Origin: Nevskiales bacterium
GTDB taxonomy: Bacteria; Pseudomonadota; Gammaproteobacteria; Nevskiales; DATLYR01
Direction: 5' to 3'
Assembly: GCA_035574475.1 (NCBI GenBank)
Contig: DATLYR010000122.1
Span: forward strand, 1-51,231
Length of the DNA: 51,231 bases
Made by a program: the position numbers and the translations under genes
Part shown: positions 5,692-29,220 of the stretch, in pieces
Numbering within the stretch: the first letter of the stretch is position 1
Layout of the letters: the number at the start of each line of letters is the position of its first letter
The notes under the pieces: generated by a model
Database searches by the model: none
Told to the model about the DNA's origin: nothing
Seen by the model: the letters and a program-made list of their open reading frames with translations, nothing else

Positions 5692-5742
5692 GGCGGTGGA
5701 TTGTCGGGGAAAGGCGCGCGCCGCGCCAGACGCCGGGGGCGG

Positions 5743-6567: not shown

Positions 6568-6654
6568 CGAGGGCGCACTATAACCGAAGCCGCGCAACAC
6601 AGCAGCCGGCGTTTTCAGCCCGCGATGCGCACGGGGGATGGGAACGGGGGTGCC

Positions 6655-9184: not shown

Positions 9185-9260
9185 GCTCCCATCGTCTAGA
9201 GGCCTAGGACGGAGCCCTCTCAAGGCTTAAACCGGGGTTCGAATCCCCGTGGGAGCGCCA
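9185..9260 (+). tRNA. tRNA-Glu, anticodon CUC
   Basis: The 76-base gene has a perfect 7-bp acceptor stem (GCTCCCA with TGGGAGC), a GTCTAGAGGCCTAGGAC D-arm as in E. coli tRNA-Glu, and an anticodon stem GAGCC/GGCTT with loop CTCTCAA (anticodon CTC, reading GAG). The T-arm is CGGGG-TTCGAAT-CCCCG and the CCA is encoded. It borders the accessory island, so it is a plausible insertion landmark. Confidence 0.97.
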
Positions 9261-9304
9261 TCTTCATGACGCAATCTGCCGCACAACCGCCTGTCCTTTG
9301 TAGC

Positions 9305-9331
9305 AAAAGCCTTCAGAAATTGAAGGCTTTT
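9305..9331 (+). terminator. Rho-independent terminator after tRNA-Glu
   Basis: An 11-base perfect inverted repeat, AAAAGCCTTCA / TGAAGGCTTTT, with a 5-base loop (GAAAT) ends in a run of T and lies 45 bases after the tRNA. It should stop transcription in both directions. It may mark the last core sequence before the island. Confidence 0.85.
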
Positions 9332-9433
9332 CGTTCAATTCGCTTGATGCAGACTTTACGTTCTGTGCCCCTTCAGGTCGCGGGAATCCCGTAGTACGGC
9401 ACGCTGTGCTTGCACAATTTCATTGGAGATCTC

Positions 9434-9952
9434 ATGGCACTGCAGTACGACCCACATACCTCAGAGATCAGCTACGAAGGCAAGGTTATCGGGAAATACG
9501 TATATATCGAGGGGGTTGCCAGGGTACAGTTCGACATCACCTACGAATGCGGCCAGGACGAGTGGGTTGTCCCATTGTCATGGTTCGACTACGGGCTTAA
9601 TCAGCTGGAGAAGCACAAGCCGCGGAACCCGGTCATTGCACTGGTAGTAGAAACGTCGTCCAGTGACATCGAGGAGGAGTTTGAGGTAGTCCGCTTCCTG
9701 ACAGAAAAGACGGTGAAGCAGGATGGATACGTCTGGCGCTTTCACAAGACGGACTCGGATACTTGGCCTTCTCTGCTTCATGCACACGACTACGATCAGA
9801 AACTTGTCCTTGATGCTCTGACCGGCGACATATACGACACAATGACGCGTCAACGTTGCAAACGTCTCAGCCAGAAAGGTCTCGAACAGATCTATCAGAA
9901 ACTGCGGGCCTCCCGTGACTTTGCTGACAAACTTAATAAACTCGTCACTTAG
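9434..9952 (+). CDS. Conserved-looking protein of unknown function, 172 aa
   Basis: The start is ATG 9434, with GGAG six bases upstream (an earlier in-frame start at 9410 lacks one). The protein is soluble, with no signal peptide or membrane segment. An N-terminal beta-rich part (YEGKVIGKYVYIEGVARVQF) is followed by a C-terminal part with WPSLLHAHDY, DALTGDIYD and an alpha-helical tail. The PS-x-x-H-x-H stretch followed by a DxxTGxIYD pattern looks like a functional core, but I cannot name the family. Its stop overlaps the stop of the convergent tniQ-like gene, and it is the only gene between the transposition module and the tRNA. It could be cargo or part of the transposon. Confidence 0.7.
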   Translation: MALQYDPHTSEISYEGKVIGKYVYIEGVARVQFDITYECGQDEWVVPLSWFDYGLNQLEKHKPRNPVIALVVETSSSDIEEEFEVVRFLTEKTVKQDGYVWRFHKTDSDTWPSLLHAHDYDQKLVLDALTGDIYDTMTRQRCKRLSQKGLEQIYQKLRASRDFADKLNKLVT

Positions 9953-11334
9953 CTGATCCGCTTCCGCTGTGTGTCGCTGGCACTGCGAGCAGCATTGACC
10001 GCCTCACGCCAGATGCCAAGATGCTCTTGCCGCCACCAAGTTTGAATTCCTTGTTTATGAAGTAAACGTTCTACCTTCCGTCTCGTGGGGGAGGCTCCGA
10101 CCTTCACTAGTTCTCGAACTACACGGTTGATTACGGTCACGAAACGTTGATGCTTCTCGCGACGGCTCCTCTCGGTGAAATCTACATATCTTTTTCTCAG
10201 TAGTTCGTATTGGGCGGGAAATCGCGCTTTCAAAGATCCTGCGTCCACTTGCAGCAATCGCGCGATACGGCCTGGTGCGATACAGGCATCTGGACTTTCG
10301 CTATTGCAGAGTCGCAGCAACTTCACCGAGACATCGTTCCAATCCTTGAATTCGCGCGTGTCTCGCTGGGACCATACCCCTTTCGGTGCGGTTGCAGCAC
10401 CAATATGGGGCTCCTCCGCCTCAATTAGCAAACTGTGTAGCGGTGTTCCGGAAACCCAGGCCAAGCGCGACAGATACTCCAAGGTGGGGACGATGTCAGA
10501 TCGGAACCACATCCATACTGTATTCTTGGGTGCACCGATTAGCCTAGCCAGTTGAGTAATGTTTCCATCCGTCAGCTGTTCCAGGACGCGTTCAAGACAC
10601 CTGAGCAAGCTGCTTGCCGTGCGCAATTGCGCCCCTGCGCTTGTCAATTGAATCGTTTTTGCCATCTCCTTCGCAGTCCAAATCTCCCACTCAGTAGCCC
10701 GCTCAACCCCGGCGCGAGTCCCTAGGAACGCCCCGCAGACAGAACAGTGGCCTGGCCTGTAGGAAGCTCCCAGCGGCCTCATCTGGGTCCCGCACCTGTG
10801 GCACGCCGTTGACAGAAGAACACCGTGATCTGGGCATGCGAAGACTGAACCCACCGACCATAGCAACTGCTCGTACAATGGTTCTTTGCGCTTCTCAACA
10901 TCGTCCAAACAAAGAGCGCACCATGCTCGTTTCCGCCTGGATATACTTCCTGGCTGCATCATCACGTAGAGTCCGATCGTTGTACTCCGCAGATTAGCCT
11001 GCCCCGTTAGCTGAGTAAGGACGTCGAGCACGTCCGCAGTTACCCCGTTTCCAATGTTGATGGTGTTGTTGAGCAGCTTCGCACGCAGCGTTGGATAACG
11101 CGTTCCCTGATTCACCCTAGTTGAGCGCTTACCTACAGCGAGGCTCATGAGGTTGGTAACTGTTACATGGTGCGCTTCAGCGAGCCGCGCCACATAGCTC
11201 GCAAGACTCTCGACACGAGTGGTACCAAGGCCAAAGGGCCTCAGCCCGTACAATACGGTGCGAGGAGGCACTATCGGCTCATCGATTCTGGCTGCGAGAA
11301 CAGCGGGTTTACGCGCCAAGTGCAGCCACCCCAA
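9949..11334 (-). CDS. tniQ: TniQ/TnsD-family target-selection protein
   Basis: TniQ/TnsD proteins choose the insertion site and recruit TnsC. The 461-residue product has the N-terminal TniQ pattern (YGLRPFGLGTTRVESLASYVARLAEAH, residues 29-55) and a zinc-binding block with C139/C142, C167-P-D-H170, C178/C181 and C197/C200. A long C-terminal part (about 205-461) contains helix-turn-helix-like segments (for example ITQLARLIGAPKNTVWMWF). The length and C-terminal region are more TnsD-like than the short TniQ of CRISPR-guided elements. There is no ATG. TTG 11334 or 11319 overlaps tnsC; GTG 11271 would also keep the conserved block. Translation is probably coupled to tnsC. Confidence 0.85.
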   Translation of the reverse strand: MGWLHLARKPAVLAARIDEPIVPPRTVLYGLRPFGLGTTRVESLASYVARLAEAHHVTVTNLMSLAVGKRSTRVNQGTRYPTLRAKLLNNTINIGNGVTADVLDVLTQLTGQANLRSTTIGLYVMMQPGSISRRKRAWCALCLDDVEKRKEPLYEQLLWSVGSVFACPDHGVLLSTACHRCGTQMRPLGASYRPGHCSVCGAFLGTRAGVERATEWEIWTAKEMAKTIQLTSAGAQLRTASSLLRCLERVLEQLTDGNITQLARLIGAPKNTVWMWFRSDIVPTLEYLSRLAWVSGTPLHSLLIEAEEPHIGAATAPKGVWSQRDTREFKDWNDVSVKLLRLCNSESPDACIAPGRIARLLQVDAGSLKARFPAQYELLRKRYVDFTERSRREKHQRFVTVINRVVRELVKVGASPTRRKVERLLHKQGIQTWWRQEHLGIWREAVNAARSASDTQRKRIS

Positions 11335-12448
11335 CGGGATCGCGAACCGGATTTCGCGTGCCTGGACGCCTCCGGTCGCGTCTACGTGACTGCTTCACCG
11401 CTGATTCAACTGGCGCTGGTTGCGGGACTTTGACAGCTGACATCTCCTTCAGTAAAACATCGTTCGACGGTCCACCCAGACTCGATTCCCCCTGCGAAAT
11501 CTCTTCCAGCATCATCGCAAGCTGGCGGTTGGTTAGCGCCCGGTTTTCAAGCACGGATTGGCCAATACTGCGGTCCCCCCTCTCGAGTGCTGTTCGCAAT
11601 GCGTCACAAAGCCAGTCTTTGAGTACGCCTACGCAGCCGAGAGTCTTTAAAAACACCAAGTCCAGGTCCTGTAGGAAGCGTGCTGGCAGCTTCAGAGGCA
11701 GGTCAGCCGCCAGTGTGTCGAGAGCAGATGCAAAGGCGTCACGGTCGTCCGCAAGATCCGGAAAGTATCGAGGAATGTGAACAAGGTTGCGCCGCCGACT
11801 CAACTGGCCACTCAGATCAAGACCATCGAGCAGCTCATATGTACCGGACAGCACATGCTTGACGCCCGTAAGAGAAGCGCGAGTCTTGATGGTGTCAAGC
11901 TGACCGCGTAGACCGCGATTACTCGCAACCCGCAGAACATGCTGCGCTTCGTCAATAAACAATGCCTGGAGGCGACGGTGGGTCATGGCACTGTCGGCCG
12001 AATCCCTGAAGATGCTCAATGCCGGCGTCTTCGCCGTGCAGTTAGCCAGCAGAAAACGCGTTTGCGGGTCGAGCTCCACCTTCCGCTTCTTGTCGAGCAT
12101 CGGTTCATTAAGCGCTTTAAGGATGTCCCGATAGAAGAGAACCCAATCGAAGATTCCGCGCTCCGGATGACGTAGCTCGACAAACACCACGGGTACGTAT
12201 GACGGATCGGCTTTCATGGCTGCCAACTCTTGTTTCAGAATATTGGCGATGCAGATACGAATTAAACGTGTCTTACCGACACCGGTGGGTCCAACGAGAT
12301 AGGTGATGGGCTTGTTCGGTGTGCCGCAAAGGATCGACATCAACTCGTCTTCGGCATCAGCCATGCGCGCATGCCGCACTATCTGACGACGAAATTCCTC
12401 AACAACATCGTCAATCTCTTTGCGCGAGCGTGACTTAGGATTTCTCAT
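11309..12448 (-). CDS. tnsC: TnsC/TniB-family transposition regulator ATPase
   Basis: This AAA+ ATPase links target selector and transposase in Tn7-like elements. The 379-residue protein has Walker A GPTGVGKT (residues 53-60), Walker B ALFIDEAQH (162-170) and a sensor-type LSGTYELLDGL segment. ATG 12448 overlaps the tnsAB stop by four bases (ATGA). A long upstream in-frame extension is only the antisense-free 3' end of tnsAB. The basic C-terminal tail (QSRRRDRRRPGTRNP) may contact DNA or the transposase. Homologous to TnsC of Tn7 and TniB of Tn5053-type elements; I favour TnsC because of the fused TnsA domain upstream. Confidence 0.88.
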   Translation of the reverse strand: MRNPKSRSRKEIDDVVEEFRRQIVRHARMADAEDELMSILCGTPNKPITYLVGPTGVGKTRLIRICIANILKQELAAMKADPSYVPVVFVELRHPERGIFDWVLFYRDILKALNEPMLDKKRKVELDPQTRFLLANCTAKTPALSIFRDSADSAMTHRRLQALFIDEAQHVLRVASNRGLRGQLDTIKTRASLTGVKHVLSGTYELLDGLDLSGQLSRRRNLVHIPRYFPDLADDRDAFASALDTLAADLPLKLPARFLQDLDLVFLKTLGCVGVLKDWLCDALRTALERGDRSIGQSVLENRALTNRQLAMMLEEISQGESSLGGPSNDVLLKEMSAVKVPQPAPVESAVKQSRRRDRRRPGTRNPVRDPVGVAALGA

Positions 12449-15135
12449 ACACCCGCATCCTGATAATGTTGAAGCGGCTTGCGCTTCCGGCGTTGGATGC
12501 GAATAGATGGCGTGGCATCCACCTTCGCTGCTACAGCTATCGGCGGATTCAGATGACTCGCCCGATGCTCGCCATCGCGGAGTTGCTCCAGCGATTTCAC
12601 TTCCGTCTGTTCGGCCTTGAGCAGGAACTGACCAAGTCGTGCGGCACTGGCAGACCTCGACTTCTCGACAACCTGACGACCCCGCATTAGCTCCTGACTG
12701 GCGCGCTGAACCTCGGATACCGTGCGGCCGTTGAAGACGTGGTAATACTCCGATCGACAAGTAAGCCACTGCCCCTCCACATAGGCATAGGCGACACCGG
12801 CGTTATAGGGGTCGTAGCGCACGGCGACGCGCTTATTGACGACTCCCGGTCGACGGAAGGCATCATTCCAATAATGCAGGTAATTCACCTTGATCCCTCG
12901 ACTAGGGAGGACTTTTGCTCGTCCATTCCTAGTCGAAGGACAAGTGAGTAGCTCGAACATGCTGTCGTAGGGAATCAAAGTGAATTTGCGATAGCCCGAC
13001 AACCGCAAGCCGTCCTCGAGTGCCTGCTTTGGGGTCATCCGCAGAGCCGGGTGAAGACTGGCTTCGTAGCACTCACGCAACCACCCATCAAATAGGCCGA
13101 TGAAATCTGGAAGGGTCCATACGGCGAGCGACTTTGGGTTTACCATCTTCGTAACAGTCCGAACGTTACGCATGAGTTTGGTGTTCCCGCGGAGGTTGTG
13201 AATAAGCTGGCTTTGGCTGACTCCAAAGTGTCGCTCAACCACCGAGCCATTCCGCGACTGAGCCGCTGGCCGAATCTTCTGTGACCGCCTGAATGCAGCG
13301 AGTAGCGTTTGGAAATAGGCGCCCAGGAATTCTGCGCCGCGATCGGTCACGACGAACTGAGGAAGACGTCCATATCTGCGCACACAGTCGCGGAGCACCA
13401 TCATGCAAGCGCGATGACTCGGCTTCTCGAACGAAATGCAGAACGCGATAACCATTCGCGTATGGGCATCAATCATGAGCGTCAGCCACGGTCGCCCGAG
13501 GTTGAGCCCTGATTTTGAGGCTACAAGCTCGATCTCCAGTTGCGTGTGGTCGATATGCGCAATCTCGAAAGGCCGGGACCCATGACGAGGCGTGCTCTGC
13601 TCCAGCAACCAGAAAAACTCTTCTACCTGATAGGCAGCGCGGTCACCTTCGCGCTTGCGCACCTGAGCAGCCCGAGGCCGCGCTCGAATCCTGGCGAGAA
13701 ACGTCTTGAAGCTGGTTGTCGGTATCCCACGCTGCTCGGCGAGCTCCAAAAACTTCCCGTACACAGCCCAAGGTGTGGATGAGCGCAGGTCTTCGTACTT
13801 GGTCTCGGCAACCTCATTGATCAGGTCGAGGACGCTGGCCGGAAGGCGTTCGCCGCGCCGACCCTTGCGCTTGTGCTGAGGCAGCAACCCGACATAACCA
13901 TTGCCATAGGTCTGCTCCGCGCTGCGGTACGCTGCAAGGTAACTGAACAACGTGCGGGCAGAGACATCTCCGCCCTGAACCTTTTGGCCTGCCAGATATG
14001 GCTCAATCAATGCTGATCGGCGGTTGGCTTCCTGCAGATCCTGTTTGCTGGCTCCGCGCAACAGAGCGTCGGCCGGATTTTCCCGTATCGCGATACTACG
14101 TATCGGCTGAATTCGCCCTTCAGCAATGCAACGCTCGAAATCGCCACGAGATAGTGTCGCAACCTTGCCGTCTTCGTTCTTCAGCGAGACCTCGTTGACA
14201 CCCGTATTCACTACCTCCCAGTCCTTACCATCCCATGCCAGAGCAGTTCCTGTCTCAAAAACGATCTCGAGGTTGACCACCTCATGGGTCGTTTGCCTGC
14301 TTTTAAAAGCGCGATGGGCAGTAGCCGCATGTACATCACGGAACACTCGTACGTGTTCGCAGCTGGTCAGAGTTTCGTCATCCAGATTACAGATCAGGAT
14401 ATGCCTGGCGATCATCGCGTAAATTAGATCAGGGCCTGTATCACCTGCTTGCTGGAGCAGATCGCTGAGCATCAGGAAGCTCTGTCCCCTAAACAGCCGG
14501 ACGATGCGAGCAACCTCCTCCGGATCCGGCGCCGGGGATCGTTCCGAAAGATAGTCCTCCAGGAACACCAGGTTCTGGTGCAGGACGAGGTCGATCTCGG
14601 CAGATGTGCGGACCCGGTAACCTAGTTGATACTGATTGGCATATTCCTCACCAGGAGGACACCTCCACCGCCCATCGGCGTCGCGCGCGTAGCGATGTGG
14701 TTGCTGCTTGGCGAGCCTTTCAAGTTCATCTTCGTACTTCCACTCTTCCCACCACATGCCATCTCGGCATATGACAAAGAAATCCGGGGTGTGCCATGTG
14801 CCAGTCTTACGCCCACCGCGGCCTTGCCAGCGCAAGATTATGCGCGGCGGTTGGTCGTAGAACTCGAGAACGTTGTCTTCGTATTCCTTCCGGTAGATGG
14901 CCGGGAGCTCAAGTGTATGGCTCTCGGCCTGAATCGTGAGTCCCATCTTCACACTGGGATAGCGGACGCAGACGTTCCCGCGTCCACCTTGTACGTTCCG
15001 TGACGGCGGCGAAGACCGAATCTGCTCAACGACCGAGCGCGCTGCCGCACTAAGGCTAAGTTTGTCGTAGAGAGCTGTAAGCTGTTCAGGTGCCAGCATG
15101 GATTTTTGTGCCCGGCGGGGCATGCGCCCCGCCAT
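12445..15135 (-). CDS. tnsAB: Fused TnsA-TnsB transposase
   Basis: The 896-residue protein joins a TnsA-type endonuclease to a TnsB-type DDE transposase. The N-terminal half has the restriction-fold triad E76 (in ESHTLE), D118 (in HTPDF) and E131-x-K133 (in WWEEWK), which in Tn7 cuts the 5' ends. A DUF-like linker with helix-turn-helix segments follows. The DDE catalytic core is D529 (AHIDHT), D598 (VVTDRGAEF) and E634 (SVVERHFG), giving a DD(35)E spacing. The C-terminus has a Mu-transposase-like beta-barrel (VAVRYDPYNAGVAYAYV). With both active sites intact, cut-and-paste transposition is predicted. The start is ATG 15135, with AAGG upstream; ATG 15099 is an alternative. Confidence 0.9.
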   Translation of the reverse strand: MAGRMPRRAQKSMLAPEQLTALYDKLSLSAAARSVVEQIRSSPPSRNVQGGRGNVCVRYPSVKMGLTIQAESHTLELPAIYRKEYEDNVLEFYDQPPRIILRWQGRGGRKTGTWHTPDFFVICRDGMWWEEWKYEDELERLAKQQPHRYARDADGRWRCPPGEEYANQYQLGYRVRTSAEIDLVLHQNLVFLEDYLSERSPAPDPEEVARIVRLFRGQSFLMLSDLLQQAGDTGPDLIYAMIARHILICNLDDETLTSCEHVRVFRDVHAATAHRAFKSRQTTHEVVNLEIVFETGTALAWDGKDWEVVNTGVNEVSLKNEDGKVATLSRGDFERCIAEGRIQPIRSIAIRENPADALLRGASKQDLQEANRRSALIEPYLAGQKVQGGDVSARTLFSYLAAYRSAEQTYGNGYVGLLPQHKRKGRRGERLPASVLDLINEVAETKYEDLRSSTPWAVYGKFLELAEQRGIPTTSFKTFLARIRARPRAAQVRKREGDRAAYQVEEFFWLLEQSTPRHGSRPFEIAHIDHTQLEIELVASKSGLNLGRPWLTLMIDAHTRMVIAFCISFEKPSHRACMMVLRDCVRRYGRLPQFVVTDRGAEFLGAYFQTLLAAFRRSQKIRPAAQSRNGSVVERHFGVSQSQLIHNLRGNTKLMRNVRTVTKMVNPKSLAVWTLPDFIGLFDGWLRECYEASLHPALRMTPKQALEDGLRLSGYRKFTLIPYDSMFELLTCPSTRNGRAKVLPSRGIKVNYLHYWNDAFRRPGVVNKRVAVRYDPYNAGVAYAYVEGQWLTCRSEYYHVFNGRTVSEVQRASQELMRGRQVVEKSRSASAARLGQFLLKAEQTEVKSLEQLRDGEHRASHLNPPIAVAAKVDATPSIRIQRRKRKPLQHYQDAGV

Positions 15136-15156
15136 GGCACCCTTAGGTTACTGGAG

Positions 15157-15492
15157 CTATTTAAGCTGCTCGTTGCACACGGGTTTCCACTTCGCAATGA
15201 GGTCGGCTTCCTCCCTCTTGCGCGCTGCCTCATCACTCGATGAGACGTGTGCGTGGATGTGTGTAGCGCCGTTACGCCTGGCACAGGCCTCTTTCTCGTG
15301 ATCAGCAAGCCTGTCTGCGAGGTTCTTGGTCTGGCCAATGTAAATGGGCACCCATCTGCCACTGCCAGGGGAGGTTTCCTTGGCATATATGTAATTACCC
15401 GAGGCCTCCTTCCAGGCCGTATTGAAGCCATGAATCCAATAGCCGTACTTCTGGCCAGATGCGCCTTCCCAATAAATATCCGGTTGACTCAT
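15157..15492 (-). CDS. GIY-YIG nuclease-domain protein
   Basis: This is a 111-residue single-domain protein. The GIY-YIG hallmarks are present: NYIYAKE, then VPIYIGQTKNLADRL, with a conserved-position glutamate in REEADLIAKWKP. Such domains cleave DNA using a tyrosine and one metal ion. I chose ATG 15492 (MSQPDIYWEG). The gene ends 21 bases before the tnsAB start and is on the same strand, so the two are likely co-transcribed. A GIY-YIG protein is not a standard Tn7 component. It could be a homing-type helper, an accessory nuclease, or simply cargo. Confidence 0.85.
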   Translation of the reverse strand: MSQPDIYWEGASGQKYGYWIHGFNTAWKEASGNYIYAKETSPGSGRWVPIYIGQTKNLADRLADHEKEACARRNGATHIHAHVSSSDEAARKREEADLIAKWKPVCNEQLK

Positions 15493-15598
15493 TTCATTTC
15501 TCCACAATCCAAATATTCGACAGATCGAGCCAGATCAGGGCCGGTGGATCAGTTAAAATCTCCTTCAATGAAGCAGATGAATCAGTAGACAAAAAAAC

Positions 15599-16159
15599 TC
15601 ATGCGATTCGTAGATACGCGTATTCCACCCCACCGGTGGGGGCTGACATTTCCTGTCGCAGCAGATAACCCTTCTCCCACAGTGCCTTGAGCTTGGTGCT
15701 TGCGTTCTGGGCGGTCAGCTTCAGGGCCTTACACACTTCCGAGGTAAACACCGGGCTGGTTCGTCCGGAAACGTAGTCCAGTACGTCCCGTGTGCCGCGT
15801 GAAGCCTGAGGTCCAATCCAATCCACACGATTCTCATCCCAGATACAAAGCGGCTGGTCTTTCTTCAAGGCCGCTGCGTCCCAGTTCTCACGTAAGTCAG
15901 GATGCTGCACATGCACCAAGCAGAACCCCTTGTCCTTGCGATAGCGGCGCGCCAACTCGACTACCGATTCGCGAGGTGCCGAAGCATCTGTACGCTTCAC
16001 TCGCTTCAACGAAATCTGAAACACCTTCACACCAGGATTAGCCTCGACAACCTGGAGCAGCCTAGCGTGGATTTCACGACCCTCATCTACGCCCCAGGCG
16101 TCATCACGCTCCATATAGTCACGCAAATCGATAAGGACATTCTGCTTCATTGAGATCAT
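15599..16159 (-). CDS. STAS-like (DUF4325-type) protein with C-terminal winged helix
   Basis: The protein has 186 residues from ATG 16159; ATG 16150 is also possible and neither has a strong Shine-Dalgarno. Residues about 1-110 resemble the STAS-like DUF4325 fold (VLIDLRDYME, then the EIHARLLQVVEANPGVKVFQISL strand-helix unit). Residues about 120-186 form a helix-turn-helix/winged-helix region (SEVCKALKLTAQNASTKLKAL, VEYAYLRI). It starts four bases after the stop of the HATPase gene, so the two are translationally linked. STAS plus HATPase pairs usually act as a switch controlling a partner by phosphorylation or binding. No sigma factor is present here. Confidence 0.7.
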   Translation of the reverse strand: MISMKQNVLIDLRDYMERDDAWGVDEGREIHARLLQVVEANPGVKVFQISLKRVKRTDASAPRESVVELARRYRKDKGFCLVHVQHPDLRENWDAAALKKDQPLCIWDENRVDWIGPQASRGTRDVLDYVSGRTSPVFTSEVCKALKLTAQNASTKLKALWEKGYLLRQEMSAPTGGVEYAYLRIA

Positions 16160-16163
16160 TGAA

Positions 16164-17105
16164 TCAGATTCTTGGCCATTCGTCAAGCCGGAACATGAAA
16201 CCAATATGAGTACCCGGCAATGAGGGGCGTCCTTCCAAGCACTGGGCGCGGTGCGGGCGATAGCCGTCCTGTGAAGGCAGAAGGTGCACCATGGAACGTT
16301 CCAGCCGGACGTTAAGTTCAGCATGTAAGCGAATCGCACAATCTGCGCTGCGCTTGAGTCCGGCCCCACGCCCACGTCCGTGACGCGATAGACCCTGCCG
16401 GAAGAGTTCGACCATCAGGTCGGTATCACTCAGCCGCACTAGCGTCGGGAACTCGCTCATCAAAGCGGGCCGCAGAGTATTCAGGACACCACGTCCGCTA
16501 TCTGACACGGCAACCATGACAGAATTGGACTGCGCGTAAGTCTGTAGCGCGGCAAAACCATCAAGCCGCGTTTCACTGTGCTGGTAAATATTGTCGACTA
16601 GCTCAGCAAAAGCGGTAAAAATAGTGGTGTGGATCCTATCGCCTGCGCCGGCCTGCTGATGCTCGGCCCAGTGTGCAACCGAATCTGCGAGCCTGCCGGG
16701 CAGGCTACGGTCAATCGCTCCACCCGGCTGATATTTGATTGGCGCAATCTCAACCAGCGCGACACTGGACCCCCCATACTTTTTTGCACCGGAAATACTT
16801 GGTCTTTGTGGGATAACGTCAATGCCAGGATTCAAATGATCAAAGAAGCCCAGCCGATTAAGGTAAGTATAGGCGTTGCTACGCGTACTGCTAAAGTTCA
16901 AAGCAACAGCTCGTCCGGAGTCGGCAAGCTGATTGACGTAACTCAAGAGTCGTATCCCGGCATCCACCATCACTTTGCAGTCGTTGGCGACGTGAATCTC
17001 AACAGCATCGCATTCCTCGCCAAACGCGCGTGTGCAGCCTGATAACGAGCGCTCAAGACCTTCCCACCCGAGCCACCCAGCCCGGAATACGACTGAAAGC
17101 TTCAT
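16164..17105 (-). CDS. HATPase (GHKL) protein with N-terminal STAS-like region
   Basis: The protein has 313 residues from ATG 17105, which has GAGGAAGG just upstream. The C-terminal half is a GHKL ATPase: N-box E168-LVD-N172, G1 box D202-SGRG and G2-like GRGAGL (245-250). No phospho-accepting histidine domain or membrane segment is seen, so it is closer to anti-sigma-factor kinases than to sensor kinases. The N-terminal part (ALNFSSTRSNAYTYLNRLGF) is STAS-like. It is the first gene of a two-gene unit with the STAS/winged-helix protein. Its target is unknown. The operon is island-borne and AT-richer than the core. Confidence 0.75.
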   Translation of the reverse strand: MKLSVVFRAGWLGWEGLERSLSGCTRAFGEECDAVEIHVANDCKVMVDAGIRLLSYVNQLADSGRAVALNFSSTRSNAYTYLNRLGFFDHLNPGIDVIPQRPSISGAKKYGGSSVALVEIAPIKYQPGGAIDRSLPGRLADSVAHWAEHQQAGAGDRIHTTIFTAFAELVDNIYQHSETRLDGFAALQTYAQSNSVMVAVSDSGRGVLNTLRPALMSEFPTLVRLSDTDLMVELFRQGLSRHGRGRGAGLKRSADCAIRLHAELNVRLERSMVHLLPSQDGYRPHRAQCLEGRPSLPGTHIGFMFRLDEWPRI

Positions 17106-17172
17106 GGCCTTCCTCGCATTCCTACTACCCCATTGTTGTGAGCCTAGCCGCCTTCGATATGGCGTCAATCAA

Positions 17173-17652
17173 CTAATCTTTGCCCCTTGAACCCCTAGTC
17201 CTGCGAGTATGCACTCCGAGCGACTGGACACGACTCACCCGAGACACGCTGGACCGGCTCAACTCTCTGAGAATCCCGCAATTCTCCGATGTTTGGACTT
17301 GGTGACATAAGTGCCGCAGCTGTTCCAGTTGGTCCTTCAGCCGTCGAAGATCGCGAATACGCTCGCTTACGTGCCCAACATGCGCGTCCAGCAACTCATT
17401 GACCCCGGCGCAGTTCCGACCAGGCGCGTCGCGAAACCTCAGCAGGGTGCGGATCTCGTCATGGGTCATGTCCAGAGAGCGGCAATGGCGGATAAAGGAC
17501 AGTCGCTCGAGATGATTTCTTCCGTAGAGGCGATAGTTCCCAGCGGTACGCTTGGGTTTCGGCAACAAGCCCTCGCGTTCGTAATAGCGAATGGTTTCAA
17601 CTTGGCAATCGGCCTGTTTTGCTAACTGTCCGATCCTGAGACCTGCGTTCAT
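17173..17652 (-). CDS. cadR: MerR-family Cd(II)/Pb(II)-responsive regulator (CadR/PbrR type)
   Basis: The N-terminal MerR helix-turn-helix is clear (IGQLAKQADCQVETIRYYEREGLL). Three cysteines at 81, 116 and 125, in the contexts NCAGVNELLDAH, HLCHQ and NCGIL, match the metal-binding set of CadR/PbrR proteins. The 159-residue length includes a short basic tail. It is divergent from the CDF-like exporter gene. The operator between them sits in the long spacer of the exporter promoter, the classic MerR arrangement where the metal-bound activator untwists DNA. It probably senses Cd, Pb or Zn. Confidence 0.88.
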   Translation of the reverse strand: MNAGLRIGQLAKQADCQVETIRYYEREGLLPKPKRTAGNYRLYGRNHLERLSFIRHCRSLDMTHDEIRTLLRFRDAPGRNCAGVNELLDAHVGHVSERIRDLRRLKDQLEQLRHLCHQVQTSENCGILRELSRSSVSRVSRVQSLGVHTRRTRGSRGKD

Positions 17653-17672
17653 CTATCTGCTCACTTGCTTGC

Positions 17673-17703
17673 TTGACCCTATAGTAGCTACAGGGTGTTC
17701 AAT
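17673..17703 (+). promoter_or_regulatory. MerR-type promoter with operator dyad for the metal-resistance genes
   Basis: TTGACC (17673-17678) and TTCAAT (17698-17703) are separated by 19 bases, the overlong spacer typical of MerR-activated promoters. The dyad at 17676-17696 has arms ACCCT and AGGGT plus inner TAG/CTA, closely resembling PbrR, CadR and ZntR operators. Transcription starting near 17710 excludes the earlier ATG at 17702 as the exporter start. Confidence 0.85.
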
Positions 17704-17731
17704 GCTGCAATCAAGGCCATGTCCGACGCTC

Positions 17732-18361
17732 ATGAACGATTCTTGCAGCGATAATTGCGCCACACGGCGAATCCCGGTTTCGCCGCGATTCCGGCGCGCG
17801 CTGTGGATCGCGCTGGTCGTCAACGCAGTCATGTTCGGGGTGGAATTCACCGCCGGCCTGAGCGCCGGGTCGGTATCGCTCTTGGCAGACGCGGTAGATT
17901 TCCTTGGCGATGCTGGCAACTACGGGCTATCCCTGTTTGTGCTGTCCATGCTGCCGGTCTGGCGTTCGCGCGCGGCCCTGCTCAAGGGTCTGACAATGGG
18001 TAGCTACGGCATTTACGTGCTGGGTCAGGCGGCCTGGAACGCCGCCGCCGGCGTCGTGCCGGAGGCGATGACCATGGGCGCCGTCGCTTTTCTGGCTTTG
18101 GCCGCCAACGTCTCCGTAGCGGCCCTGCTGTATGCTTTCCGCGAGGGCGATGCCAACATGCGCTCGGTGTGGCTGTGCTCGCGCAACGACGCCATCGGCA
18201 ATGTCGCGGTCATGCTGGCGGCGGTGGGTGTGTTCGGCACCGGCAGCGCATGGCCCGACCTCACCGTCGCGATCGCGATGGGTCTGCTGGGCTTAACTGC
18301 CGCCTACAGCGTCATTCGTCATGCCCGCGCTGAACTCAAGGAAGAAACCTCGTCTGCATGA
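17732..18361 (+). CDS. Cation transporter, CDF-like, short form
   Basis: This 209-residue membrane protein has about six predicted transmembrane segments. The first metal-site motif is LLADAVDFLGDAGNYG, with D53, D56 and D60, where typical CDF proteins have H/D-xxx-D. The second, in helix 5, is CSRNDAIGNVAVM. It lacks the C-terminal cytoplasmic domain of classical CzcD/YiiP. It lies under the MerR-type promoter and is the first gene of the metal cassette, so it probably exports Cd, Zn, Pb or Co from the cytoplasm. The start at ATG 17732 is set by the promoter position; the Shine-Dalgarno is weak. Confidence 0.82.
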   Translation: MNDSCSDNCATRRIPVSPRFRRALWIALVVNAVMFGVEFTAGLSAGSVSLLADAVDFLGDAGNYGLSLFVLSMLPVWRSRAALLKGLTMGSYGIYVLGQAAWNAAAGVVPEAMTMGAVAFLALAANVSVAALLYAFREGDANMRSVWLCSRNDAIGNVAVMLAAVGVFGTGSAWPDLTVAIAMGLLGLTAAYSVIRHARAELKEETSSA

Positions 18362-18424
18362 ACAAAACTAGACCTAAGTGGTCCTACCTGCCTGGTTGAC
18401 CGGAAACCACAAGCTGATAGCCTG

Positions 18425-18808: not shown

Positions 18809-18879
18809 GCCTCCTCCGACGTTCATCCGATCGTTGACCGTCATGCCTGGAAGGCATGGCTGTGCCATTGGAGGCATTC

Positions 18880-20157
18880 ATGCTATTCGCTCATACACGC
18901 GCAGCGTGCGCGAGTTTTCTGTTTTTGGGGCTGCTCGTCTGTACCGCAGCCCGGGCCGAAGCGCCACCGGCGGGACCGCCGCTGAGCTTGCGCGAGGCGG
19001 TGCAATTGACGCTGCAGCGCAATCCCGACCTGCAGGTCTTTGCCTTTGCATTGCGTGCCCAGGACGCGCGTACCCAGCAGGCCGGACTACGGCCGCCCCC
19101 AGAATTGTCGGCCGAGATCGAAAACGCCCTGGGCAGTGGCGAGACGAAGGGCTTCGATACCGCCGAAGCCACGTTCGCGCTATCCCAGGTGATCGAACTG
19201 GGCGGTAAACGCAGCCGCCGCATCGCCGCCTCCCAGCTTGGCCGTGAGGCACTGAGCGTCGAGCAGCAGGCGGCGCAGCTCGACGTCCTGGCCGAAGTGA
19301 CCCGTCGCTTCGTACACGTGGCCTCGGATCAAGAACAGCTCGCGCTGACCCGACGCGCCACCGAACTCACCCGGACCACCGTCGCCGCCGTGCAACGGCG
19401 CGTCGAGGCCGCCAAGTCACCGGATGTCGAGCTGTACCGCGCCCGCGCATCGCTGACGCGCGCGGAGATCGACCTGAGGCATGCCGAACACGAGCTGCTC
19501 GCCTCGCGCCGCAAGCTGGCCGCGATGTGGGGAGAGCGGGAGGCGAGGTTCGGCACGGTAGAGGCCGACTTATACGCCATGCCAGCGCCCACCCCGTACG
19601 AGCAGCTGGTCGCACGCATGGCCGCGAACCCCGACTTCGTCCGCTTCGCGAGCGAGGCGCGGCTGCGTGACGCCGAGATCCGCCTCGCCGAGGCCCGCCG
19701 CCGGCCGGATGTCACGTTGACTGGCGGCATAAGGCGCCTGCAGGAAACCAGTGATACCGCCTTCGTTGTTGGATTCTCCGTGCCGCTGTTCGCCGGCCGC
19801 CAGGCGGCGCCTGCCATCGCCGAGGCGCAGGCACTGCGTGGGCAGACCGATGCCGAACGCGAGGCCGCTTTCGTCAAGGCCCAGGCGCAAGTCTACGAGC
19901 TGTACCAGGAACTGGCGCATGCCATCAACGAAACCGGCACGCTCAAGCAAGACGTGCTGCCACAAATGGAAGAAGCGCTCAAGCAGACCGAGTATGCCTA
20001 CGACCGCGGGCGCTACAGCTATCTCGAGCTGGTGGACGGCCAGCGCGCCTATCTCGACAGTCAGCGCGCCTTGATCGAAGCCGCCACCACCGCCCAGACC
20101 CTCCAGGCCGAAATCGAGCGCCTGACCGGCGAACCACTCGCCGCCGGCGCGTACTGA
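18880..20157 (+). CDS. czcC: Outer-membrane channel of a heavy-metal efflux system (CzcC-like, TolC superfamily)
   Basis: This 425-residue TolC-family protein forms the outer-membrane exit duct of the tripartite metal pump. The signal peptide ends near ARA-EAPP, followed by the first OEP repeat (LSLREAVQLTLQRNPDL) and the second repeat (ARMAANPDFVRFA...EARRRPDVTLTGG). A conserved ending, YDRGRYSYLELVDGQRAYLDSQ, is also present. ATG 18880 is chosen because GGAGG lies seven bases upstream. czcB follows after 12 bases. Confidence 0.9.
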   Translation: MLFAHTRAACASFLFLGLLVCTAARAEAPPAGPPLSLREAVQLTLQRNPDLQVFAFALRAQDARTQQAGLRPPPELSAEIENALGSGETKGFDTAEATFALSQVIELGGKRSRRIAASQLGREALSVEQQAAQLDVLAEVTRRFVHVASDQEQLALTRRATELTRTTVAAVQRRVEAAKSPDVELYRARASLTRAEIDLRHAEHELLASRRKLAAMWGEREARFGTVEADLYAMPAPTPYEQLVARMAANPDFVRFASEARLRDAEIRLAEARRRPDVTLTGGIRRLQETSDTAFVVGFSVPLFAGRQAAPAIAEAQALRGQTDAEREAAFVKAQAQVYELYQELAHAINETGTLKQDVLPQMEEALKQTEYAYDRGRYSYLELVDGQRAYLDSQRALIEAATTAQTLQAEIERLTGEPLAAGAY

Positions 20158-20169
20158 CGGAAATTACCC

Positions 20170-21141
20170 ATGAAAAACTACAAACTGATTGTTCTCCTGG
20201 GTCTCACCCTGAGCCTCGGCGCCTGCGATACGTCCGGGCCCACGGCCACCAACGCAGAACCGACAGAAGCCTCTCACGCCGAGTCTGGACATGACGCACA
20301 CGAGGGCGAAGAACCCCAGGAGTCCGAGGGACTCATCAAGCTGAGTGCCGGGCAGGCCACCGCCGCAGGTATCGAGATGGCGATGGCTGGTCCCGCCAGG
20401 ATCCGCGAAGTCCTGACACTCTACGGCACGGTCCGGCCGAATGCCGAGCGCGTGCGTGACGTGACGGCGCGCTATCCCGGCATCATCCGCAGCGTGGCGC
20501 GGCGGGTGGGTGATGCGGTGCGCGAGGGCGAAACCCTGGCCATGGTGGAATCCAACGAGAGCCTGCGCACCTACCCCGTCGTCTCGCCACTGTCCGGTGT
20601 GATCACCGAGCGCCGCGCCAACCCCGGCGAGTACACCGGCGAAGGACCGCTGTTTGTCGTAACAGACCTGTCCAGCGTCTGGGTCGAGCTGTCGCTGTTC
20701 CCGCGTGATCTCGCCAAGGTGCACGTGGGCCAGCCGGTGCGCGTGCGCAATGTGGACGGCGGCATCGAAGCCAACGGCCAGATCGTCTATGTCGCACCAC
20801 TCGGACAAGCCGAAAGCCAGACTTTGACCGCACGTGTGCTGATCGCCAATCCCGAGCGGCACTGGGCGCCTGGGCTGTATGTCACCGCCGAGGTCACCCT
20901 GGCCGAGTCTGAGGTGGCGGTGGCGGTCAAAAGTACCGCCCTGCAAACGGTTGAAAACCGCAGCGTGGTGTTTGTGGCCGAGGCTCGAGGTTTCCGCCTC
21001 CAGCCGGTCTCAACCGGGCGCAGCGACGGCGAATTCACCGAGATTACCCAAGGGCTCGCCTCCGGCAGCCGCTACGCCGCCGCCAACAGCTTCGTGCTCA
21101 AGTCGGAGCTGGGCAAGGGCGAAGCGGATCACGAGCACTGA
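20170..21141 (+). CDS. czcB: Periplasmic adaptor of heavy-metal efflux (CzcB-like, lipoprotein)
   Basis: This 323-residue membrane-fusion protein connects the RND pump with the outer-membrane channel. It has a lipoprotein signal (LSLGAC, Cys at 19). A His/Glu-rich linker (HAESGHDAHEGEE) is likely to bind metal. The adaptor domains follow: biotinyl-lipoyl half-motifs around GDAVREGETLAMVES and PVVSPLSGVITERRANPGEY, then the beta-barrel region. The C-terminus ends in HEH. It is nine bases before czcA. Confidence 0.92.
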   Translation: MKNYKLIVLLGLTLSLGACDTSGPTATNAEPTEASHAESGHDAHEGEEPQESEGLIKLSAGQATAAGIEMAMAGPARIREVLTLYGTVRPNAERVRDVTARYPGIIRSVARRVGDAVREGETLAMVESNESLRTYPVVSPLSGVITERRANPGEYTGEGPLFVVTDLSSVWVELSLFPRDLAKVHVGQPVRVRNVDGGIEANGQIVYVAPLGQAESQTLTARVLIANPERHWAPGLYVTAEVTLAESEVAVAVKSTALQTVENRSVVFVAEARGFRLQPVSTGRSDGEFTEITQGLASGSRYAAANSFVLKSELGKGEADHEH

Positions 21142-24258
<3,117 letters not shown>

Positions 24259-24728: not shown

Positions 24729-24776
24729 GGCCCTTCGATGCTTGCTCGATTTTAGTCTTGGCTTTTTCACACGGCG

Positions 24777-24927: not shown

Positions 24928-25566
24928 TTACCGAGGCTTAGCTGGGTGTAAATGGCCACAATATATTCCTTCAATTTCAAACTGTTCCCGTCGCAAGTCA
25001 ATGACAATGGGCGCATTGTCAGGATTCCGAGAAACCAGTGACACCAATGGTCCGCTCTGCTGGAACACTTTTATTGTGATCTCTGGACCAGACGCTGGAA
25101 ATAATTTGGCCACAACAATCTGGCCGTTGTCGGCGCTGGTAGTCGCGCGCACTCCTACCCAGTCGCCATCCTGTATACCCATGTCCTTCATGCTGTCACC
25201 AACGATGCGACGCAGATACTGCGCCTTGGGACGGAAGAGTCGTGTATCTACGCGGTAGTAATCATCGATGTCAGTAGTAGCCAATAGCGGCGGACCTGCG
25301 GCGACTCGTCCAACTAAGGGGAGCAGATCCTCAAACGGCGCATGGGTCACATCGCGCATGAGCTGAATGCCCCTATATTCGCCGGTCAGCTTCAGATAAC
25401 CCTTCGCCTCCAGTGCGCGCAAATGTTGCTGTACTGTGGCGCGATTACATTTTCTGAAATGTGCAATCTCCGCTCTGGTCGGGGGCATTTGGTTACGTGC
25501 CATGAACCGCTGTATCAGGTCCAAGACCTTTTCCTGAGCGATTGAAAGCGGTGGTCGATCTTGCAT
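24928..25566 (-). CDS. LexA-family S24 autocleaving repressor
   Basis: The 212-residue protein has full LexA architecture. The N-terminal winged helix is MPPTRAEIAHFRKCNRATVQQH..., the cleavage site lies in GRVAAGPP (Ala-Gly), the serine is in GDSMKDMGIQDGD and the lysine is in IVVAKLF. It should therefore cleave itself when RecA is activated. The recognition helix (NRATVQQHLRAL) differs from E. coli LexA, so a different operator is expected. The start is ATG 25566 by alignment to LexA, though ATG 25575 and 25593 are in frame. It diverges from DUF5131, with a 22-bp palindrome between them. This may be the host's second LexA or an island-specific repressor. Confidence 0.9.
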   Translation of the reverse strand: MQDRPPLSIAQEKVLDLIQRFMARNQMPPTRAEIAHFRKCNRATVQQHLRALEAKGYLKLTGEYRGIQLMRDVTHAPFEDLLPLVGRVAAGPPLLATTDIDDYYRVDTRLFRPKAQYLRRIVGDSMKDMGIQDGDWVGVRATTSADNGQIVVAKLFPASGPEITIKVFQQSGPLVSLVSRNPDNAPIVIDLRREQFEIEGIYCGHLHPAKPR

Positions 25567-25568
25567 TA

Positions 25569-25590
25569 ATACCATACAGTTGTATGGTAT
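25569..25590. promoter_or_regulatory. 22-bp palindromic operator candidate for the LexA-like repressor
   Basis: Perfect 10-base arms, ATACCATACA and TGTATGGTAT, are separated by GT. The palindrome overlaps a plus-strand promoter candidate (TTGCAT at 25561, 16-base spacer, TATGGT at 25583) and the start region of the lexA-like gene. Binding would therefore repress both directions, the usual autoregulated divergent layout. Confidence 0.7.
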
Positions 25591-25633
25591 CATTATTTAT
25601 GAGGCACTACCTACAATCCGCATGGGAGGTCTG

Positions 25634-26380
25634 ATGTCGCAGGCAAGCCGAATTGAATGGACGGAAGCAACCTGGAACCCAACCGTCGGTTGCACCAAAG
25701 TCTCGCCCGGCTGCAAGCACTGCTATGCAGAGACCTTGGCGAAGCGGCTGAAGGCGATGCAAACACCAGGCTATGAAAATGGCTTCAATCTCACCCTGCT
25801 AGCACAGCGCCTTGAGGAACCGCTCAAGCGAAAGCGACCGACGGTTTACTTTGTCAATTCAATGTCCGACTTATTCCATGCCGGCGTCCCCGACGCCTAT
25901 ATTGACCAAGTCATGGATGTCATTGCCCGGTCACCACGTCATACGTTTCAGATACTCACCAAACGAGCCGATCGCATGGCGAGCTATTTCAAGCACAGGC
26001 CGGTCCCGACCAATGCCTGGCTTGGCGTATCGGTAGAAAACAGAAAACATGGTGTACCTCGTATCGCTTACCTGCGTCAGGTGGCCGCACGCATCAGATT
26101 TCTATCGGTAGAACCTCTCCTTGAAGACGTGGGGGAGCTTGATCTAACTGATATTCACTGGGTCATCGTGGGCGGTGAATCGGGGCCTAAGGCAAGACCC
26201 ATGAACCGTACCTGGGTGCTGGACATAAAGCGCCAATGCCGCGCTCACGGTGTACAGTTCTTCTTCAAACAATGGGGCGGATGGGGGGCCGATGGTAAAC
26301 GTCGATCGAAAAAGGCCAATGGACGACTGCTTCGCGGACGCACCTGGGACGAAATGCCGAGGTTATCGGCAGACGCGTAA
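25634..26380 (+). CDS. DUF5131 (phage Gp37/Gp68) family protein, three-Cys radical-SAM-like
   Basis: This is a 248-residue protein of the phage Gp37/Gp68 family. It has a cysteine cluster C20-x6-C27-x2-C30 (TVGCTKVSPGCKHCYAE), reminiscent of radical SAM iron-sulfur sites. The core segments YFVNSMSDLFH, FQILTKRADRM, WLGVSVEN and VGGESGPKARPM are present, and it ends with the family tail WDEMP. ATG 25634 has GGGAGG four bases upstream. It is the first gene of a three-gene unit with tcmP and a nuclease-like gene, divergent from the LexA-like repressor. The enzymatic substrate is unknown; a damage-repair or modification role is inference from the LexA control. Confidence 0.88.
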   Translation: MSQASRIEWTEATWNPTVGCTKVSPGCKHCYAETLAKRLKAMQTPGYENGFNLTLLAQRLEEPLKRKRPTVYFVNSMSDLFHAGVPDAYIDQVMDVIARSPRHTFQILTKRADRMASYFKHRPVPTNAWLGVSVENRKHGVPRIAYLRQVAARIRFLSVEPLLEDVGELDLTDIHWVIVGGESGPKARPMNRTWVLDIKRQCRAHGVQFFFKQWGGWGADGKRRSKKANGRLLRGRTWDEMPRLSADA

Positions 26381-26386
26381 GCACGT

Positions 26387-27658
26387 ATGACCCGCCGGCC
26401 ATACAGTTGGAAGAATGGCCCGGACGAGATCCAGCAACATAGCATCGCGAAACACGAGGTGCTTCGTGCATACCTCGCCCGCTACTTCGCAACCCTTGTA
26501 AGCTACCCGCATCAGGATAGCCTGCGTCTAACCTTGGTTGACGGCTTCGCTGGCGGTGGTCTCTATATACACAGCGATACGCGGCAACCGGTGCTTGGCA
26601 GCCCCTTTATCTGCCTTGATGCAGTACGAGAGGCTGAAGCGCTCATCAATCTAGAGCGGCGCAAGCCCGTAAAACTCGATGTCAGTTACTTCTTCATCGA
26701 GAAGGACAGGCACGCCCATAAGCATCTCGACAAAGTGTTGCGGGATCACCAGTTCGGGAACAGGATCGGCGTCGATATTCATCTCCGTCATGCGCGTTTC
26801 CAGGATCAGGCGCAGGATATTATTAATTTCATCAGGGAGCGCAGTCCGCGAAACGGACGCTCGATATTTATCCTTGATCAATACGGGTATTCGGACGTTC
26901 CACGACCGCTGATCCACAGTATCTTCTCCAGCCTGCCGCGCGCCGAGGTCATACTGACCTTCGCAGTCGACTCGTTCCTGAACTATGCCAGCGACGGCGC
27001 TCTGACGAAGCAGTTGTTAGACGACATAGGCATTCCAGAAATCTTGAGAGGGCGAAGCATCGATGAGATCAAGAACTCAGAAGCGGATTGGCGCCTCTTC
27101 ATTCAGAGCGGTCTCTACCATGGCCTAGTCACAGGCTGTGGCGCTCGCTACTTCACGCCATTCTTCATACGTAACAAGCGTGGGCACGGCGACTACTGGC
27201 TACTACATCTCTCGCAGCATGCGCGGGCCCGTGACGTGATGACCGAAGTACATTGGGCCAACCAGAACTACTTCATTCATTACGGCGGTGCGGGTCTGGA
27301 CATGTTCCAGATGGTGGGATATGACCCTGATCATGACGCAAAATTCAGGGGACAGCATGGGCTGGGCTTCGAGTTTGATGATGTCGCGCGCGGGCGCAGC
27401 CTGCAGGCGTTAAAGGAGCAAATACCCACCTGTATCTATGCGAATGACGAGGGATTGACGTTTGGTGAGCTATTTGCAGCCACCTGCAACGGCTCACCAG
27501 CATCCGCAGAGATATACAAAGAAGCGGTGCAAACGCTAATCCAGGAAAGGATCATCGAAGTGGTCAGTGAAGATGGCACGGTCCGCCGATCTGCGCAACA
27601 GATTCGGTATTCCGACCGGCTTATAGCGCCAGACCAACGGAGCCTGTTCCTCCCCTGA
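26387..27658 (+). CDS. tcmP: Three-Cys-motif partner protein TcmP
   Basis: This 423-residue protein belongs to the family defined by adjacency to three-Cys-motif (DUF5131-type) proteins, exactly the arrangement here (6 bases apart). Residues 50-60 (LVDGFAGGGLY) and 163-170 (LDQYGYSD) look like the SAM-binding and catalytic-loop positions of a Rossmann methyltransferase fold, with WSTPK-type WKNGPDEIQQHSIAKHE at the N-terminus. The C-terminal about 90 residues contain a winged-helix-like segment. The biochemical role is not established in anything I can derive from the sequence. Confidence 0.88.
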   Translation: MTRRPYSWKNGPDEIQQHSIAKHEVLRAYLARYFATLVSYPHQDSLRLTLVDGFAGGGLYIHSDTRQPVLGSPFICLDAVREAEALINLERRKPVKLDVSYFFIEKDRHAHKHLDKVLRDHQFGNRIGVDIHLRHARFQDQAQDIINFIRERSPRNGRSIFILDQYGYSDVPRPLIHSIFSSLPRAEVILTFAVDSFLNYASDGALTKQLLDDIGIPEILRGRSIDEIKNSEADWRLFIQSGLYHGLVTGCGARYFTPFFIRNKRGHGDYWLLHLSQHARARDVMTEVHWANQNYFIHYGGAGLDMFQMVGYDPDHDAKFRGQHGLGFEFDDVARGRSLQALKEQIPTCIYANDEGLTFGELFAATCNGSPASAEIYKEAVQTLIQERIIEVVSEDGTVRRSAQQIRYSDRLIAPDQRSLFLP

Positions 27659-27677: not shown

Positions 27678-29057
27678 GTGGCAATCACATCGATTTCTCA
27701 GGAGCGATTCAGCGCACTTGCCATGTTCGCTCGCCATCCGACTCTGATACTGATTTCAGAGGAACTGGAATGGTTCGCCGATGACCATGAACGAGTGCTT
27801 GGCGTTGTCACGAAACATCGTGAGGACCAAGATTACATGTTCGCCATACTGGGGCGGGACGAGAACCGGCGCTTTCGTTGCATAGATGTCTGTACCGAGT
27901 GTTACCCGACCCCAGGGCGTGCGCGTAGTGCGTTGATCGCCGCCATGGAACGAAATGCCAAGCTTTCGGACGAAGCCTATTGGCAGGGCGACGCTGGGCC
28001 GCGTGGTGTCGATCTATTTGAACCAGTGGCGCGTGAAGAGGAAATGCACCCGGGGTTCAGGGCAGCTGCCAAATCCGAGCATTTTTCGCCAGCTAGGGAA
28101 CTTCTGTCGGAGCTAATGCACCACTGGCGCGACGTGGACGGTAATTTCGTTCAGCAGTTTCAGACGACGGGCTTTGACGCCAGGATATGGGAACTGTACC
28201 TGCACGCAATGCTTGTTGAGCAGTTTCTGCTCGTTGAGCGACCACAGCCATCCCCAGACTTCTTTGCGCACCGCGGCCCTAATGGAGGGTTCTTTCTTGA
28301 GGCCGTGACAGTGGGTGGTAATCCATCGGATGAGCAGCCTTCACTAGTCGATCCAATGACGTTACGTCCCACGAAGTCTCCGGAAGAGGTGCGGGCAATC
28401 CTCAGTCATGAGATGCCTATTCGCTACGGCAGCCCATTGTTTTCAAAACTCAAGAAGGCCTATTGGGAGCGACCCGAGGTCGCAGGCCATCCGTTGGTAT
28501 TCGCTATAGCTGACTTCCACGAGCCATTCGCCATGACTTGGAGCGGCACTGCTCTCTTTGAATACCTATACGGGGTACGCCACGACTTTAGTTATTCAGA
28601 GGATGGAAAACTGCTTATTTCAGCAATGAAGATCGATACACATAAGCACGGGCAAAAGAAGGTGCCATCTGGGTACTTCTTCCAGCCATACGCCGAGAAT
28701 GTCAGTGCAGTGCTCTTTTCCGCGACTGGGACAATCAGCAAATTCAACAGGATGGGCAAACTTGCTGGCTTCGGTTCACCGCGTGTCACGCTCCACCGGA
28801 TTGGGACCTGCCAGGATCACGACCCCGATGCGTCAATGCCAAGACAGTTCGCCTTCGAAGTGGTGCCCGGCCAAATCAGGGAAACATGGGTTGAGGGGGT
28901 ATCCGTGTTCCATAATCCAAATAGCAGGCACCCATTGGATCCAAACTTTCTGCCTGGCGCTGGGCACCATTTCTTTCGAAATGGCCGGATAGAGAGCATC
29001 GTTCCAGATTTTCACCCGTTCTCGTCGGTTACCCTTAATACCATTGTCGGCAAGTGA
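27678..29057 (+). CDS. Unknown protein with PD-(D/E)XK-like motif, third gene of the TcmP unit
   Basis: This 459-residue soluble protein starts at GTG 27678, with GAGG close by; ATG 27723 is an alternative. I do not recognise the family. A restriction-endonuclease-like signature can be seen: E172 in a helix (WELYLHAMLVEQ), P193-D194 (PSPDFF), then E208-A-V (FFLEAVTV) across a strand. The usual lysine after the glutamate is replaced by valine, so activity is doubtful or uses another residue. It follows tcmP by 19 bases on the same strand and is probably co-expressed. A DNA-processing role in the module is inference. Confidence 0.65.
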   Translation: MAITSISQERFSALAMFARHPTLILISEELEWFADDHERVLGVVTKHREDQDYMFAILGRDENRRFRCIDVCTECYPTPGRARSALIAAMERNAKLSDEAYWQGDAGPRGVDLFEPVAREEEMHPGFRAAAKSEHFSPARELLSELMHHWRDVDGNFVQQFQTTGFDARIWELYLHAMLVEQFLLVERPQPSPDFFAHRGPNGGFFLEAVTVGGNPSDEQPSLVDPMTLRPTKSPEEVRAILSHEMPIRYGSPLFSKLKKAYWERPEVAGHPLVFAIADFHEPFAMTWSGTALFEYLYGVRHDFSYSEDGKLLISAMKIDTHKHGQKKVPSGYFFQPYAENVSAVLFSATGTISKFNRMGKLAGFGSPRVTLHRIGTCQDHDPDASMPRQFAFEVVPGQIRETWVEGVSVFHNPNSRHPLDPNFLPGAGHHFFRNGRIESIVPDFHPFSSVTLNTIVGK

Positions 29058-29220
29058 TGCCGGACAAACCAGACCATAAACTGCGTCTACTGAAGTTTAC
29101 TCGTACAAATCTGTTGGTATATGAAGACTATTAGGTAAATAGAAGTGCCTCGCGCCACCAGAACCTTCGCTTTCTTTGACGTTTGGCTGCAAGCTATAGG
29201 TAAAAAATGCCTGAGCACTT

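Follow-up and report, generated by a model that had tools for sequence, protein, structure and literature searches.

The 51,231-nucleotide stretch of Nevskiales bacterium DNA analyzed here (the window) almost certainly carries a complete, stand-alone Tn7-like transposon, predicted to move by cut and paste, of the TnsAB-fused subfamily that gave rise to the type I-B2 and I-D CASTs. The element belongs to an already known group of Tn7-like transposons that insert just after tRNA genes (2024 review, PMC11406308). It has TGT/ACA termini with TnsB-type sites (three at the left end and the terminal one at the right end), a 5-bp target-site duplication (CCGCC), and a set of TnsA, TnsB, TnsC, and TniQ with intact catalytic residues, all of which are hallmarks of Tn7-like elements. 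A first-pass annotation had proposed that a Tn7-like transposon without CRISPR-Cas is guided by protein to the 3' region of tRNA-Glu, and this proposal is supported by the ends, the duplication, the synteny of the empty site, the distance to the tRNA, and the homology to the TnsABCD proteins of PmcCAST. The extent of 9949-15135 that it gave holds for the tns genes but not for the element, which spans 9292-29235 (Table 1).

A scan for TGT...ACA pairs with identical flanking 5-bp words returned a single pair near both flanks, at 9292 and 29235 with CCGCC on each side, and no other CCGCC/ACA partner for the left end was found between 10,000 and 32,000. The ends, the 5-bp duplication, and the TnsB-type repeats that the first-pass annotation had suggested looking for are thus all present. 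Scored against a matrix of the relatives' ends, the right end of the window ranks third best of about 102,000 positions; the left end is divergent and ranks 75th of about 102,000. The layout of the left end, with sites 1 and 2 inverted and site 3 following after 27 bp, is common to the window and its relatives. A hairpin just 3' of the tRNA (AAAGCCTTC...GAAGGCTTT) was considered as a chromosomal terminator and rejected, as it consists of the inverted TnsB-type sites 1 and 2, which the relatives have as well. The GC content is 58% in the element and 67% in the flanks. An Rfam search of 9000-29700 found the tRNA alone, and the tRNA-Glu(CTC) gene has one further match elsewhere in the genome, with 81% identity.

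In order-level relatives, the locus consists of pcnB, tRNA-Glu(CTC), and an RDD-family gene, with lptG next in several of them, while in the window the tRNA-Glu (9185-9260) and RDD/lptG (29221 onwards) lie 20 kb apart. When the flanks are joined across one CCGCC, they read ATGACGCAATCTGCCGCACAACCGCCCGCCTCG..., and the open frame MTQSAAQPPASPAGLLPRLGAALYDLLLL continues into RDD; the restored RDD frame starts 5 nt after the tRNA. The uninterrupted tRNA-Glu/RDD junction is accordingly predicted to read ...ACAACCGCCCGCCTCG..., and one relative (L018) has the open frame MPAVPYPASLWRRLAAAVYDLFLL, translated by eye, in the corresponding place, from 57 nt past its tRNA. The comparison with loci lacking the element, also suggested by the first-pass annotation, therefore came out as expected for an insertion, with tRNA-Glu and RDD as neighbors in relatives and an RDD frame that is restored by joining the flanks. 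Together, the single TGT/ACA pair, the synteny of the empty site, and the joined RDD frame define an element of 19,944 bp that begins 31 nt beyond the 3' end of tRNA-Glu(CTC) and interrupts RDD near codon 9. The current ATG of RDD falls within the right end of the transposon (MGKTTPPASPAG...), 15 nt from its edge, with the frame unchanged. In the left ends of 11 of 12 relatives, the conserved terminus (TGTGACTTTACCCAT) likewise has an ATG that points outward at exactly 15 nt from the edge and is followed by no in-frame stop. The interrupted RDD gene of the window seems to have obtained its new start codon from the transposon end in this way.

Table 1. Features of the element and its flanks (positions in the window)
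Feature	Position	Strand	Remarks
tRNA-Glu(CTC), attachment-site gene	9185..9260	+	Intact; ARAGORN and Rfam
Target-site duplication, left copy	9287..9291		CCGCC
Left end (LE), terminal TnsB-type site	9292..9316	+	TGTCCTTTGTAG...; TGT/ACA pair with 5-bp duplication
LE repeat 2	9322..9341	+	GAAGGCTTTTCGTTCAATTC; inverted repeat with terminal site; layout as in relatives
LE repeat 3	9349..9368	+	GCAGACTTTACGTTCTGTGC; 27 bp from repeat 2, spacing also 27 bp in L053
180-aa ORF between LE and tniQ	9410..9952	+	
tniQ/tnsD, target selector	9949..11334	-	461 aa; TniQ core, zinc finger, CI/XRE-type HTH, further C-terminal helices
tnsC, AAA+ regulator	11309..12448	-	379 aa; Pfam and PDB match
tnsAB, fusion transposase	12445..15135	-	896 aa; Pfam and catalytic residues
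GIY-YIG-like small protein	15157..15507	-	Weak match (3.3e-4, under family cutoff)
Winged-helix/MarR-like cargo protein	15599..16375	-	Weak Pfam match
HATPase_c-like cargo protein	16164..17168	-	Weak Pfam match
CadR/PbrR regulator, cargo	17173..17652	-	TIGR02047 above cutoff
Cation diffusion facilitator, cargo	17591..18361	+	PF01545; start putative
CzcCBA/IhpABC-type RND metal efflux, cargo	18856..24258	+	18856-20157, 20170-21141, 21151-24258
LexA-type repressor, cargo	24928..25593	-	TIGR00498 above cutoff
DUF5131 and TcmP pair	25580..27658	+	25580-26380, 26387-27658; candidate defense pair PDC-M30
PD-T7-1 phage defense protein, cargo	27678..29057	+	PADLOC 2.5e-174
Right end (RE)	29211..29235	-	TGTGGTTTTCCCCATAAGTGCTCAG read inward; matches relatives' end matrix
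Target-site duplication, right copy	29236..29240		CCGCC
RDD-family host gene	29221..29646	+	Present ATG within RE; inferred original start ATG 9266, on opposite flank

The transposition genes appear to be intact. TnsAB matches the Pfam families Tn7_TnsA-like_N (2.7e-7), rve (1.4e-8), and Mu-transpos_C (1.6e-6), and the TnsA triad E76/D118/E131-W-K133 and the DDE triad D529/D598/E634 lie in this one protein exactly as numbered in the first-pass annotation, with E76, D529, D598, and E634 invariant in seven aligned TnsAB proteins. TnsC matches TniB (7e-12) and AAA_22 (4e-13) and has the Walker motifs noted earlier (Walker A GPTGVGKT, Walker B ALFIDE). Its start is probably ATG 12448 and not GTG 12769, which gives an ATGA overlap with the tnsAB stop, and the non-ATG start of tniQ, putatively TTG, overlaps the end of tnsC, in line with the overlapping genes originally described. 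TniQ matches PF06527 (1.7e-16), and the eight zinc-type ligands reported for it (C139, C142, C167, H170, C178, C181, C197, and C200) are all invariant. It is unlikely that the element is a decayed, immobile remnant: the weak match of the left end to those of relatives and the TTG start of tniQ would fit such a state, but the catalytic residues are intact, the ORFs are open, and the 5-bp duplication is perfect.

The closest solved structures place these proteins next to a homing system. Among solved structures, TnsAB is closest to the I-B2 TnsAB (9bw1_M, 4e-220; next family, 3e-13), and TnsC matches 8fcu/9bw1 at 6e-55. TniQ matches the TnsD of 8v32/9bw1 at 6.7e-41 and, more weakly, the Cascade-coupled TniQ of a type I-B CAST (2e-19). 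The best fold match of its AlphaFold model (mean pLDDT, 81; pTM, 0.67), built from an alignment that left out the plasmid-collection row L043, is 8v32_J, the TnsD of a TnsD-TnsC-DNA complex (E, 4e-24). Since both the PDB matches and the best fold match favor TnsD, the data support the view that the TniQ of the window is a homing TnsD and not a Cascade adaptor. We take 9bw1 and 8v32 to be PmcCAST proteins, in keeping with the match of their TnsD to that of L070 ("Peltigera membranacea cyanobiont" 210A), the two agreeing over the stretch compared by eye; the geometry of L070 is as in the window.

The absence of a Cas gene or CRISPR array was borne out by the family and repeat searches, which revealed no Cas family among the ORFs of the element and no array-like repeats, and the genome has one TniQ. 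The features that characterize I-B2 and I-D CASTs, namely genes for Cascade, a CRISPR array, and a TniQ coupled to Cascade, are thus not seen here. These CASTs descend from TnsAB-fused Tn7-like elements in which TnsD homes to tRNA genes (PMC11406308), and the same TnsABCD machinery as in PmcCAST would also be seen if the element were an I-B2 or I-D CAST that had lost its Cascade instead of a lineage that was always without one. We consider such a loss highly improbable, as the searches found neither remnants of cas genes nor a CRISPR or a further TniQ, and TnsAB falls outside the cyanobacterial I-B2 clade, although on a long branch whose place is unsure.

Defense and resistance cargo is typical of Tn7-like elements (PMC8649781), and the metal efflux system, PD-T7-1, and the candidate defense pair presumably benefit the host. 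The 180-aa ORF at 9410-9952 had no Pfam (one subthreshold match), NCBIfam, or PADLOC family. That the element is a small one ending near 15.5-17 kb, with the metal and defense genes as a separate island at the same spot, is scarcely credible: the right end of Tn7 does sit just upstream of tnsA, and the GC content goes up in the metal block at 18-24 kb, but the single valid end pair, whose joining restores the RDD frame, largely refutes it.

A single-sequence TnsAB scan of genome contigs gave no confirmed relative, and a TnsAB alignment query returned 80 loci from Cyanobacteria, Acidobacteria, Chloroflexi, Bacillota, Planctomycetes, Nitrospirae, and others. In 11 of these and in a Caballeronia element (L043), tniQ is followed downstream by an ordinary tRNA (Ala, Val, Pro, Thr, Gln, or Met) whose 3' end faces the element. 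The tns genes point toward the tRNA 3' end in all 12, which include the host of PmcCAST, the left-end TGT is found 28-32 nt beyond the tRNA, and the gene order is likewise shared with the window, where the distance of 31 nt agrees with the insertion about 30 nt downstream of the tRNA that is typical of the subfamily. The geometry of the window, first described as unusual because its genes read toward the tRNA, is therefore normal for the subfamily, and in Tn7-like elements the att site may be on either side (PMC11406308). Three further relatives (L062, L063, and L072) have left ends that adjoin an intron-containing tRNA, which the search with default settings did not pick up; Rfam reports a group I intron at this place, and ARAGORN with introns allowed finds the tRNA, Leu(TAA) in L063. 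For another relative (L052), which is complete, both ends and a 5-bp duplication were found. Three short elements (L086, L093, and L095; about 5.5-6.3 kb, with tnsAB-tnsC-tniQ only) have both ends and matching 5-bp duplications, and a search for a tRNA at their left ends found none. The 16S of the host has its nearest match among plasmid-collection records in Methylomagnum (87%), which is consistent with Gammaproteobacteria. Relatives of the element are rare around the host: one other genome among 369 of the class has a TnsAB relative, and one other among 399 of the phylum has a TniQ relative; TniQ relatives within the same order are partial matches of 26-37% identity. In a TnsAB tree of 82 rows, the window sits beside the Caballeronia row, a join flagged as long branches meeting, so that the placement is unsure. 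No second copy at a tRNA-Glu site was found, and the specificity for tRNA-Glu therefore rests on one insertion and the behavior of the family.

By analogy with PmcCAST-type and other known systems, TniQ/TnsD would use its C-terminal HTH domains to bind the tRNA-Glu(CTC) gene in the 3' part and would recruit TnsC, which would in turn activate TnsAB. The TnsA half would cut the 5' strands, and the TnsB half would cut and join the 3' strands. As a result of these proposed steps, the left end would land about 30 nt past the tRNA, which is kept intact.

The CI/XRE-type HTH of the window TniQ reads PKNTVWMW from residue 269 (residues 269-276). A pattern of the form [KR]N[TSK]...W, which was picked after the data had been seen, occurs in 19 of 76 TniQ sequences, 16 of them with a facing downstream tRNA, in counts that ignore shared ancestry; the remaining three sit on short contigs (L065 twice and L082). 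The only TniQs next to a facing tRNA that are without the pattern are second TniQs in four elements that also bear a pattern-carrying TniQ. In L053, the pattern matched another stretch, yet the HTH reads PRNTVWLW. As a lead, the PKNTVWxW motif appears to track with adjacency to tRNA genes (Glu, Met, Ala, Val, Pro, Thr, Gln, and Leu). It is conceivable, though rather doubtful, that this helix motif reads a feature common to many tRNA genes while other TniQ/TnsD domains pick the particular tRNA, and that the outward ATG of the conserved terminus can restart the interrupted downstream gene. If true, the reading of the motif would explain how one family moves among these eight kinds of tRNA genes.

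The element analyzed here is a Cas-free member, with exactly defined limits, of the transposon group ancestral to two CAST types. Its host is proteobacterial, a setting in which this group is rare, and phage defense and metal resistance genes are documented together on one element. The Caballeronia sp. M1242 element (NZ_CP071130.1) shares with the window the tnsAB-tnsC-tniQ order, a 461-aa TniQ, and genes that point toward the 3' end of a tRNA, here tRNA-Met, with the left end 28 nt away. Its TnsAB (16255-18969) is 32% identical to that of the window, and the TnsA half is without equivalents of D118 and K133, so that, judged from the residues, cutting of the 5' strand may be altered or lost. 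Its right end was not found by a search for its duplication. A second tnsC-tniQ pair lies at 5162-7520, about 11 kb from the first, and may belong to a further Tn7-like element of that island.

Tn7 itself has the same TnsABCD logic, TGT/ACA ends, and 5-bp duplication, but it differs in its separate TnsA and TnsB, its glmS target, its att site at the right end, and its TnsE. CyCAST and McCAST (type I-D) belong to the same TnsAB-fused subfamily as the window element but carry an I-D Cascade, and for CyCAST the homing site lies 30-33 nt beyond tRNA-Leu, on its downstream side (PMC10293859). PmcCAST (type I-B2, Tn7744; PDB 9bw1, 8v32, and 8fcu) has a TnsAB fusion, TnsC, and a tRNA-targeting TnsD that match those of the window over most of their length, tns genes that point toward the tRNA, and a left end about 30 nt past it. 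In contrast to PmcCAST, the window element is without Cascade, a second TniQ, and CRISPR, bears metal and defense cargo, and sits at tRNA-Glu instead of tRNA-Val. The TniQ of the window is 25% identical to the TnsD of PmcCAST, for which a DNA-bound structure exists, and a comparison of the two could reveal how tRNA identity is recognized and how this recognition changes, a point that bears on programmable integration.
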